Positions 55,631 to 61,100 of a stretch of DNA of 64,000 bases are shown one piece after another. Numbering within the stretch: the stretch's first letter is position 1; the number at the start of each line of letters is the position of its first letter. Location: contig BCKT01000009.1 in assembly GCA_003116875.1 (NCBI GenBank), positions 868,001-932,000 on the forward strand. The letters run 5' to 3'. The position numbers were made by a program, and so were the translations under genes. Source of the DNA: Takashimella koratensis. Taxonomy: Eukaryota > Basidiomycota > Tremellomycetes > Trichosporonales > Tetragoniomycetaceae. Below the pieces are notes generated by a model, which ran no database searches, was not told where the DNA came from, and saw nothing but the letters and a program-made list of their open reading frames with translations.

Positions 55631-56524
55631 GTGAGTATAGGACCTTGAGGAAAGAGCTGCGGAAAGGTTTCAACCAAAGACAAGGGGGGGACGCAGTACG
55701 TCGTGAGCCTTTTTTGGTTTGTGAGAAATAGATGGGCGCAAGCAAGATAAGTGGAGTACCCGGTACTCGTGTATCGTCGTATCGTTGAGGCGGACGCGAT
55801 AGGTGAATGCGAAGGACCTGGTGTAAGTCAGATAGGCGATACGGAGGTGGATGGATGTTGTGATAAAGTGACAACTAAACGGTTTCACCCTTTACTTCTA
55901 TGCTTTCCCACCTTTTAATTTTCGTCGCGCTCATTTGTATTTCCCCGCATTTAGGATTCAGGGTGGAGCAATGGACTCTCAGACTAAACAGCACCGCAAC
56001 CGATCGGTCACATGTTACCCCTCCCCCAGTAGCAGGCAGGCAGATTATTTGTAGATGCAGACAGGCGCAGACACCGTATGCACTGCGCACGATGCCAAGC
56101 AGACGTCACAAACACAAGCATGAGCATGGGCACGAACAGCTGGAGGATAACCTGAGCACGAGCACGGGCACGAGCACGAGCACGAGCACGAGGACTGGCC
56201 ATGACCCTGGGCAGCAGATTTACTTAGTAAAGCATACATGGTATTCCCGCCCCTCAGGTAACGAGGTACTCTGGAACCGTGGAACGATGGTATGCGCATG
56301 AAAGCGCAGGCGCCAGGGTTGAGGCTGGCAGATGGATAAATGTGGGTGGGTGGGAGCGACAGATATAGAACGAAGGAAGGAGCGAGCTTGAATGGGAAAC
56401 TAATGAAAATCTGATCTTTTTGTACACAACGCGACACGACGCGAGATTGAGCAGGAAATCTTTTATCTTAATCCTCTCTCCTCGGCACCTGTTCTTCTTG
56501 GACCACTACTTCGCCTTTGGTTTC
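55631..56524. other. Intergenic, with GAGCAC hexanucleotide repeat
   Basis: No gene. An imperfect (GAGCAC)n/(GGGCAC) repeat at about 56153-56193 reads as Arg-Ala repeats in one minus frame, but that frame has no other coding character. Confidence 0.5.
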
Positions 56525-58171
56525 TCAGATGCCATTTGTATAAGGAACCTCGTGGAAGAGGTACGACTAGAAGCAAGGAGACAAGTCAGCAAAAGTGTTC
56601 CATCCCCCATACCGCCCAACTCGCTGCGCTCGTCTGCTCGTGCGTTACTCACGACTGATTCTCCAAAGTGTGACCGCCTGATCGTCTCTGCCAGGACGGG
56701 GCTAACATCAACGACCTCGATCTTCTCACATTTCGCCACGTTCTCCCCCTGTGGGATTGTGTTTGTAATCACGAGTTTCTCCATCCCGCACTCTGCGATG
56801 ACTTTGAGTGCGGGGCCTGACAAGATTCCGTGAGTGACGAACGCGTATACTTTGGTAGCTCCAGCTTCGAGGAGGTTCTTAGCTGCCAAGCCAAGGGTAC
56901 CGCAGGTGTCCGCCATGTCGTCGACGAGAATGGCGACTTTACCGGTAACGGAACCGACAAGGACCATACGAGAGACTTCGTTGGCCTTCTTGCGCTCCTT
57001 GTGGAAGAGCGCAAAGTCGACATTGAGTCGGTCCGCGATGGACGTGGCCCTAGCAAGCAAGGGTTTAGCGGGAGTACTGATAAAGGTAAAATTCGGGCTC
57101 ACCGCTTGGCACCACCAGCATCAGGGGAGACAATCACGACGTTGGCAACGTCAATGTGGTCGCGGATGTACTGAACCATGGAGGGTTCGGCGTAGAGCTG
57201 GAGAAAGAGTCAGTCGCTACTCGCTAATATTTAAGTTTGCCATTGTGGTTGAGACAGTGATACCCACGCTGTAGTCGGTCAGCTTCAGCCTCTGCTCGTT
57301 TCCTGCTGCAATCTCAACTCACTTGTCAACCGGGACGTCGAAGAATCCCTGAATCTGCGACGCGTGCAAGTCCATCGTCTGTACAGAGTCAGCTTGATCC
57401 CTTCTATCTCTAGCTGTCCATCATCCTCCTCTTCTTCAGTCTGGCCCGCCTTGCCAAGCTTTCCGCTATCATATTACCAAACCCTAAACCCCTCACTCAC
57501 GATAACGTGGTCACACCCAGCCTCACGAAGCATGTTCGCAACCAACTTTGCCGTGATCGGTGCCCGACTCTTATCCTTCTTATCCTGCCTTGCGTAGAAG
57601 AAGTGCGGGATGATGGCGGTAACTCGACGCGCGGAGGCAATCTTGCATGCGTGGATCATGATGCAGAGTTCCATGAGAGAGGTGTTGACGGCTCCCGCGC
57701 CCTAAGCCCGTCAGCAATTGGAGCCTGAAATACACCAGGAGGAGAGGTCGGGGCCGAGGAAAAATATCTTGGTGGTGTGTGTAGTATGGGAAAGCAATGG
57801 GAGGAAGAAGCAAAGACGTACAGTGTTCAGGATGTAGACGTCATAGTCGCGAACACTCTCAATGATGGTGACTTTTGTCTCGCCAGATGGAGGTTGTTGC
57901 ACGTCGGCGCGAGCGAGAGGGATTCGTAGTCTGTCGCGGTGGTCAGCTGAAGGTTTACATTCTTGTCATGCCAGCTGTAGCCTACCTCTTGGCGATGAGC
58001 TGCGCGAGCTCCGGGTGAGACGACCCTGATTTGCGTCAGCAAGGGGGTTTTCAAGCATTGTTCGAGATGGAGGTGAGAAGCTGACATGGGGAGAGGGGAA
58101 GGAGTCAAGAGATAGTTGAGACCAGACTCACCGCTGAAGAGCTTGATAGAGGAGTAAGCTGCCGAGGCCAT
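56525..58171 (-). CDS. PRS: Ribose-phosphate pyrophosphokinase (PRPP synthetase)
   Basis: Makes PRPP from ribose-5-phosphate and ATP for nucleotide, histidine and tryptophan synthesis. Nine exons: 58171-58132, 58025-57986, 57930-57822, 57701-57501, 57378-57323, a single base at 57268, 57197-57103, 57049-56653, 56566-56525. Total 981 nt, 326 residues (human PRPS1 has 318). Motifs: [11 protein letters not shown], the flexible-loop region [16 protein letters not shown], the Mg-ATP site [18 protein letters not shown], and the PRPP-binding loop [13 protein letters not shown]. The C-terminus is GESVSYLF. Between PVD and LYAEP the Asn codon is split over three exons as AA, C and nothing. Without the single C exon the frame breaks and stops at 57136-57134. 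The paralogue number (yeasts have several PRS genes) is unknown. Confidence 0.93.
57268..57268 (-). other. Predicted one-nucleotide exon in PRPP synthetase
   Basis: The minus strand reads ...CTGACCGACTACAG-C-GTGGGTATCAC.... The upstream intron (57322-57269, 54 nt) has donor GTGAGT, a CTGAC branch site and acceptor TACAG. The downstream intron (57267-57198, 70 nt) has donor GTGGGT, a CTGAC branch site and acceptor CCAG. The single C completes AA to AAC (Asn), giving the family sequence VDNLYAEP. Confidence 0.75.
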
Positions 58172-61100
58172 GGTGGATGGGCTGTATCTGTCCCTTTGTG
58201 AGCGGTGAGAGGTTGGCTGGTGGGGTCGGAGAGTCGGGACAGAGTCAAGATGGGTAGGGAGTGGGGAGTGGGGAGTGGGGAGTGGGGAGTGGGACGCAGG
58301 AAGTCAGAGCTGGGTCTAGTGTATGCTACGGTGTGCTGCCCCTCGAGGCCTATGGGTACATGTCTTGGTCGAGGTGAGGTGAGGAGGAGGAGGTAGGGAC
58401 CGAGGTGAGGCAGGGAAGGGAGGATGTTGTACGGTGTAATGAAAAATTCGCCCCGCTCAAGTCCGGTAATAGAGTCGTACGGTGGAGAGTAATCTAAACC
58501 CACCCGTTGGCTGTGGCTCTCCCTCCAGGACCAGGCGGAGGGAATGGTTTGATAGCGTCTGTCGATTTAAATGACGTGTGCGAACACGGACAGTAGAGCA
58601 TCGTCATCTTGCCCGGTGGCCAAGGCGGTTTCTTGTTTCAGCGCAACGAGTAGTAGTGGGATGGACAAGAGCAACAATCGGGCGACGAGCAAGAGAGCAA
58701 GTGACGGGTCGACGAGTATGACGGGCAGAACGGCAGCGAAGGGCGACAGATACATTGTTCAGTCTATATACTTCAAACGCTGGGATTGCATTTTTTTCCT
58801 CATTCACACGACCATACACAACCACACTACCTCTGATTATTCCAGATACAGTAGACGTCGTGGCGCGAATGATCATCTATCCCTTTGACACCAAACTCGT
58901 TACATGAATCAGCAAGGTAGTTTAGGTGTCCAGAAATCTCGGACTGCGACTCGTCGAGCGAGGGTCAAGGACAAGAACGTGTGTGAGCGCGTTCAAAGTC
59001 CAAAGGAGGTCGTGAGGTAAGGAGGTGGAAGAGACGCGCGTAAGAGATGATGGTGGGAACGGGCGCGGGTCGGTCAAAGTGAGCCGTGGAAGGGCGGGGG
59101 AAACAGGGGGTGGAGGGGGGGAGGGGCGTGGAGTCAACGGGGCGAACGGGGCTGATGGGGAAGGAGGCGAGGGGATGAGAATAGATCGACCCGAAGTAAG
59201 GAGTCAGTCAACAGAGGTCAACGCCGTCAGCAATGTCGTGTCGTGTCGTGTGTCAGACGCAGTCCGGGACCCTCTTTTTCGCGTTTCTGATGATGACAAG
59301 GGCAGTTAAGCGAGTGTCAAAGGGGGTGGGGGTGGGGTGGGGTAAGGAGGAGACCAGGGATAGCGAGGTAGAGAGTGTCGGCGGTAGCCGGCGGTATAGG
59401 ACGTCGGGGAGTGACTAGAACCAATTGAAGAGGGAGAGGGGAGAGAGGGGGAAAGGAGAGAGAGGGAGAAGAGAGGGTAGTGGCAGCAGGTCGGGCGCGA
59501 AGGGAACGCTCGTCCGTTGCCCGTTTTCCCGAATATGGAGTCGAGTGATGGGAAGTTTTTAACAGGAATGGGAAGAAGATGACGAGCGAGGAGGACAGAA
59601 TGAGCGAGGTATGGGGTGGGCTGGAGCAGGTGGAGTGATGTGAAGAAGGCATAGGAGTGGAAGACATGTGTGAGGTTTGATGAGCGTGAGGACCGAAGAC
59701 AAGGGAGATGAGTGCGGACATGAGAGGTCGGACAGCGGTCCTGGTGGTGGTGGAGGTGGTGGTCCGCGTTTCAACACGGGCTCGTCATTGAGCCGAGCCG
59801 AATAAAACCAAGTTCCAGATCCGAACAGAACACTTTGGATTCCACGGACAAGCTCAGAATCGTCCCCTGGGCGTGCTGGGCGTGCTGAGCATTGGGCAAA
59901 TACAGTACATACAGTACAGTATGATGAAGGCACGACTTGAAACCAAGCCACATCTGGACTTTTCAACTCAAGGAACAAACTCTGAACGACGGTCCAAACG
60001 AATGGGTGGATTGAGGAGTGCTGTACAGTATTGGGTGTTTAGGTCGGCACCTGGGGTTTGGAGTACGATTGCTGCTCCCCAGCGCCAGAGGCCGGAAGCA
60101 ATTGCCCCTGCGTCGTTGAAAGTGTCAGCATCAACGACGACGACGAGGCCTCACGACGATGACAACGACGGTGGTGGCTGCCTTTTTGGGCTTGTTTACA
60201 TCCCGGATCTCCACCCATCCGACAGACCATCGTTATACCGCAAAGTAGAAACCCAATCTCCACTCTGTTTAATCCCTTTCACGGCACCCAAGTAAAAATG
60301 ACGTCTCATCGGATGGACCGGGTCGATATTTGTTTACGTTGTTTTTTTTTTTTCATTATGGGTTGGTACTGAAAAAGTGACCACCGGATCGTCATTCGAC
60401 AGTCACCGTGGATGAAGGGAGAGTAATTAGGGGCGTCTGGGGTAGAGAAGGAGAAGATGACGGTCGAGAAGAGCAGAAGATGAGAGTGAGGGACAAGGTC
60501 AGAGGGAAGTGAGAGGGAGAGCATGGCCTGTGCGGGGAAAGGGGGCAATCAATGACTCAGAGGGAGGTGCAATCGTTGATTGTTTGGTCCCTCTCCCTCT
60601 CCCTCGGTCGCTGTCCCGGTGCCTCCTCCGCCTTCCCCTGTCCATTTCCATTTTCAATATCCAACATGACTCTGTCTCTGACTCTGCTCCGTTCCTGCCC
60701 TTTGACCCGGAGGCACGCGCAGGTGGTAGGCCCAAGACCACTGGCCTCCTTCCCCCCCCCCGGCCAGGTCCCCCTGCGCCCCCCCTTCCCCGTGCCGAGA
60801 GTGATCAAGAGGTCCGAGCGAGTTTCAGTAATGTCAACATCGTACCAGCTGACCCACGACTGACTCTGAACCCCGTATCCCTCCCCCTCTACCCCCGACT
60901 CCATCCTCCCCTCCTCCCCTCCTCCCCTCCTCCCCTCCTCCCTCCTCCTTCCTCGCCATCGTCTCCATCTTCGTCCTCGTCTTGTTTGTCTTCATCCTTC
61001 TTTCTTATTCTCACTCTCATTCTCATTCTTTATACCCAATCACGCCGACTCCGACTCTCCAACTGTTGACGACACACACACTCATTTGATACCCCCGCCT

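Follow-up and report, generated by a model that had tools for sequence, protein, structure and literature searches.

A predicted single-nucleotide exon in the PRPP synthetase gene of Takashimella koratensis, with a footprint in the protein models of related fungi

The analysed stretch of Takashimella koratensis DNA, a window of 64,000 nucleotides, carries on its minus strand a gene that extends from ATG to stop over positions 56525..58171 and is predicted to consist of nine exons, one of which is the single nucleotide C57268. Once this C is included, the exons join into a spliced coding sequence of 981 nt for 326 amino acids plus the stop. The predicted protein matches PF14572 above the cut-off, and the human PRPS1 and PRPS2 chains align to its residues 8-322 (PRPS1, E 3e-132). 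By this full-length family match and the match to solved structures, the predicted product is a PRPP synthetase. A 7-base tandem array (58257-58293; 5.3 copies, 100% matches) lies some 90 bases ahead of the start codon, and a 6-base array of GAGCAC (56154-56192; 6.5 copies, 93% matches) is found downstream of the stop codon.

All exon joints of the gene are ordinary except the one within the motif VDNLYAEP. Here, exon 5 (57323..57378) ends on the bases GTT GAC AA in phase 2 and is followed by intron 5 (57269..57322) of 54 nt, with a GTGAGT donor, a CTGAC motif and a CAG acceptor, the acceptor side reading CTGACCGACTACAG. Then comes the predicted exon C (57268..57268), which completes the Asn149 codon AAC as its third base and is supported by the frame, by the splice signals and by the way in which annotations of relatives fail. 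Intron 6 (57198..57267) of 70 nt has a GTGGGT donor, again a CTGAC motif and a CCAG acceptor with the acceptor side CTGACTCTTTCTCCAG, and the bases directly before exon 6 are CTTTCTCCAG. Exon 6 (57103..57197) opens in phase 0 with the codons CTC TAC GCC; all these features lie on the minus strand. Between exons 5 and 6 the sequence is therefore CTGACCGACTACAG/C/GTGGGT (TACAG/C/GTGGGT, slashes marking splice junctions). C57268 is bounded by the AG acceptor and the GT donor of two complete introns, and it is required for both the reading frame and the conserved VDNLYAEP. An earlier, sequence-only reading had placed the exons, the introns and the C correctly base for base. Its claim that omission of the C shifts the frame and brings a stop 21 codons on was confirmed from the spliced frame, in which exon 5 joined straight to exon 6 is one base short and the 21st codon is a stop.

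The splice signals around the C resemble those in the rest of the gene, which has eight introns of at least 53 nt each. The donors of the remaining six introns are GTGAGT, GTAGGC, GTACGT, GTGAGT, GTGAGC and GTGAGT, and five of these six contain CTGAC with its A 9-19 nt ahead of the acceptor end. In the two introns flanking C57268 this A lies 10 and 12 nt ahead of the acceptor end.

The residue restored by the C is conserved. Human PRPS1 and PRPS2 read FFDIPVDNLYAEP at the site, the Asn being residue 144 in the numbering of the matched chain, and the human chains show no variation in VDN. V142L, which alters the same triplet, is listed as disease-associated for human PRS1 (PMC4363470). A second PRPP synthetase-like gene in the same genome (contig C9, about 307801-309103, minus strand), with approximately 50-72% identity exon by exon, is free of introns at the VDN/LF site and encodes FFNIPVDNLFSE in one uninterrupted open stretch. 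The proposal that a single C restores Asn in VDNLYAEP is borne out by the frame, the splice signals and the human chains.

Three protein searches, of which the best 120 hits each were kept, listed 212 distinct proteins. Annotated records (ncbi, nr, uniref) account for 119 of these, while 93 occur solely under the codes lgn and jgi, which were taken to denote assemblies of public read sets and of JGI data. For 70 of the 93 contig-only entries, even the longest contig is no more than 400 nt longer than the coding sequence, which leaves too little room for eight introns of at least 53 nt, so that these entries resemble cDNA. In the other 23 the excess is above 400 nt, and introns are possible in principle. 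A codon is present at the site in all 93 contig-only homologues listed: 92 read VDN and one reads VDS (P0057). The four listed annotated records that have an lgn copy all read VDN as well, whereas among the 115 listed annotations without such a copy VDN is found in only 14, one of them from a mosquito (P0048), and the other 101 depart from it, which points to a systematic annotation error (Fisher 1.7e-42 against the contig-only entries, the rows not being independent). In the 14 annotations with VDN, either the exon was modelled or one of the two introns is absent in that species. Six further PRPP synthetase relatives on viral contigs (37-53% identity) were set aside, being too divergent for orthologues in closely related fungi.

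The departures are confined to one place. The Asn149 column deviates in 81% of the 115 annotations compared to 1% of the 93 contig-only entries, and an insertion immediately after Asn149 is found in 37% and in none, respectively, annotated records being interdependent through shared pipelines and related species. V147 and D148 deviate in 27% of the annotations, while the worst near-invariant column outside VDN shows 7.8% deviation and the median over 155 columns is 0. By these alignments, the annotation failure is specific to the VDN/LYAEP joint. Furthermore, seven annotated proteins are the same as a contig-backed VDN sequence everywhere except at this site: P0014/P0004, P0019/P0003 and P0021/P0005 in Cryptococcus, P0121/P0062 in Leucocoprinus, P0146/P0149 in Pleurotus ostreatus, P0167/P0061 in Suillus and P0171/P0177 in Postia placenta.

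The DNA structure of the relatives was read back from their protein models. If the relatives carry GACAA/intron/C/intron/CTN, a gene finder that misses the C has to restore the frame in some other way, and each way leaves its own mark. The plainest mark is the direct join, as in VDNCTPSR of Cryptotrichosporon argae (P0037) and VDNCMLSRP of Naganishia albida (P0045), where one and the same DNA string can code for the tail and, in the next frame, for LYAEP or LYAEPS. P0037 has the top identity to the predicted protein among 33 aligned homologues (92%); split at the damaged stretch, its identity is 96% ahead of it and 92% behind it, the top values among the nine compared. In 25 of the 115 annotations VDN is lost altogether, which fits a Val codon GTN taken as donor. 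One-residue insertions after Lys are without exception Trp (13), Tyr (10) or Cys (4) in the 27 cases, as expected if the second GT of GTRNGT is used as donor, which adds GTRN, the other codons being stops. Among the 17 longer insertions, ten end in Ser before LYAEP (binomial 8.6e-7 at 6/61, the species not being independent), as expected if the exon is begun further upstream with the donor kept behind the C, so that the insertion ends in AGC; one of those counted here, P0096, could equally be a downstream extension from the C. Four of the 17 end in Gln or Lys (xAG), which fits an exon 6 extended upstream, and VDNVSD in Lyophyllum and Tricholomella is the coding of C/GTNAGTGAY, that is, a downstream extension from the C.

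VDK is found in 29 of the 115 annotations. A real Lys codon or a G exon was considered and rejected: none of the 93 contig-only entries has VDK, and P0146 and P0171 are otherwise the same as contig-backed VDN sequences. We infer that an aligner unable to place a one-nucleotide exon put the extra mRNA base on the first G of the intron. Two models, P0014 of Cryptococcus neoformans (VDKHCC-LYAEP) and P0178 of Rhodonia placenta (VDKCYAEP), fit none of these error types. The deviating annotations would thus mostly be explained by a hidden AG/C/GT in the genes of the relatives.

Taken together, the sequence and the proteins of relatives strongly support the view, first put forward in the sequence-only reading, that C57268 is a one-nucleotide exon. 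It is highly probable that the C is normally included in the mRNA, that its two introns are spliced one after the other and that the arrangement is common to many Tremellomycetes and Agaricomycetes. In other words, the exon is very probably real and present in the transcript, with two sequential splicing steps, in both classes; judged from the protein models, many members of these classes would carry GACAA/intron/C/intron/CTN TAY. Donor, branch site and acceptor are all present in each of the short flanking introns, which would make each recognizable by intron definition. As the acceptor and the donor are one base apart, simultaneous splicing of both introns is hardly feasible. Removal of the first intron would leave the C attached either to exon 5 (AAC/GTGGGT) or to exon 6 (CAG/CCTC), after which the second would leave as an ordinary intron to give GAC AAC CTC TAC (Asp-Asn-Leu-Tyr). 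The short introns flanking C57268 would agree with intron definition and consecutive removal, the mode proposed for the one-nucleotide exon of Arabidopsis APC11, where the authors call simultaneous splicing around a single base very unlikely (PMC4674806).

The possibility that a regulated fraction of the transcripts lacks the C, its inclusion acting as an on-off switch through the premature stop and decay, is compatible with the favoured reading rather than exclusive of it. We regard it as improbable. Skipping would bring the stop 21 codons on, and a plant exon of 9 nt, when artificially shortened to 1 nt, was left out of 33% of the transcripts (PMC4674806). However, such a switch finds no support in the contig-only homologues listed, every one of which has a codon at the site, although a skipped product of 169 amino acids (0.52 of the query) lies below the 0.55 length limit of the protein search, so that its absence from the listed entries says nothing about skipping.

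It is very unlikely that a sequencing or assembly error dropped one exon base and that the 125 nt between exons 5 and 6 form one ordinary intron. Length does not speak against it: single introns of 106, 120 and 122 nt are present in the same gene, beside which 125 nt is not unusual, and intron length was therefore dropped as an argument for two introns. However, the same one-base deficit is seen in the models of two other species (P0037 and P0045), many more models deviate exactly here, and an error would not create AG/C/GTGGGT with a branch site inside an intron. In 100,000 dinucleotide shuffles that left the donor hexamer and the final 20 nt unchanged, and with both introns required to be at least 45 nt, AG/Y/GT alone arose in 6,108, AG/Y/GTRNGT without a branch-motif requirement in 104, and AG/Y/GTRNGT together with a CTRAY branch motif in 10.

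Alternative splice paths were enumerated with an inserted exon of at most 40 nt, introns of at least 40 nt and, for single introns near the joint, GT or GC donors. Two two-intron paths were obtained, the one through C57268 and one with a 13-nt exon and the donor GTCTCA, which would put a VGIT insertion into the conserved motif. Four single-intron paths are in frame and were rejected, each deleting conserved residues of FFDVPVDNLYAEP (VDN, VPVDN or more). The sole enumerated path that preserves VDNLYAEP is the one with C57268 as a one-nucleotide exon. Splicing of one intron from the weak GTTGAC donor at 57330, giving an enzyme without VDN, is in frame and yields the product seen in the 25 VDN-less annotations. 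Such a product is found in none of the 93 contig-only entries, the VDN-less P0021 and P0167 are otherwise the same as contig-backed VDN sequences, and the triplet does not vary in the human chains, so that this path is most unlikely. Least probable, at a negligible level, is a spliceosomal twin intron (stwintron), where a splice signal of one intron is split by a second intron and the mRNA retains no base between them: two consecutive short introns do lie at one fungal site and would need consecutive splicing too, but both have intact signals and one base must remain in the mRNA for the frame.

The stwintrons of filamentous fungi are still a related system, as they likewise consist of two short U2 introns removed from one place in consecutive reactions; they differ in that the internal intron interrupts a splice signal (PMC5639578), whereas the two PRPP synthetase introns each have a full set of signals and leave one exonic base in the predicted mRNA. 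The closest parallels to the predicted C exon are the one-nucleotide exons of plant APC11 and VPS55, which also lie between two introns, are needed for the frame and were missed by annotations (PMC4674806; PMC8831610). These are described as conserved over diverse land plants and absent from reference annotations (PMC8831610). In these genes, which are different ones from another kingdom, inclusion was demonstrated by RNA and constructs, whereas that of C57268 is predicted; in some plants the VPS55 exon also undergoes alternative splicing. In Fusarium, a one-nucleotide exon in CYP621A, called by its authors the first for a fungal gene, similarly restores a conserved motif in a fungal nuclear gene and was found via frame logic and orthologues (PMC12940212). 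That case, as reported, concerns a P450 without a known function from a single ascomycete genus, with a G exon (AGGGT) and 18 RNA reads (PMC12940212), compared to a basidiomycete housekeeping enzyme with a C exon (AGCGT) and indirect support over two classes. Xlr2 of Trichoderma virens has a fungal microexon as well, but the gene there is a regulatory one, and inclusion of the microexon is described as a regulated switch (PMC11121469). The statement in the sequence-only reading that one-base exons are extremely rare is fair, although the class is already documented in plants and Fusarium.

No one-nucleotide exon in a basidiomycete or in a PRPP synthetase appeared among the matches listed in the open-licence literature. 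The exon of placozoan cox1 is mitochondrial and hence not spliceosomal; it consists of a single base (PMC5436844). The PRPP synthetase C exon would be a further one-nucleotide exon beside plant APC11 and VPS55 and Fusarium CYP621A, with unusually wide indirect support. The exon likely predates the split of Tremellomycetes and Agaricomycetes and has since been retained, in a gene for an essential enzyme, by most mushrooms and basidiomycete yeasts. If true, no single-nucleotide exon known outside plants would be more widespread, and the majority of public Agaricomycotina models of PRPP synthetase would be wrong at the Asn residue.

One-nucleotide exons probe how the spliceosome copes with splice sites separated by a single base. 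A case common to many culturable fungi, some of which have genetic tools, makes the order of intron removal, a block on skipping and the retention of both introns testable. In addition, the error kinds described above are a usable signature for other hidden one-nucleotide exons in protein databases, and the comparison of annotated with cDNA-like sequences could be extended to all conserved fungal proteins. A one-residue contrast between annotated proteins and cDNA-like open reading frames flags a hidden tiny exon.
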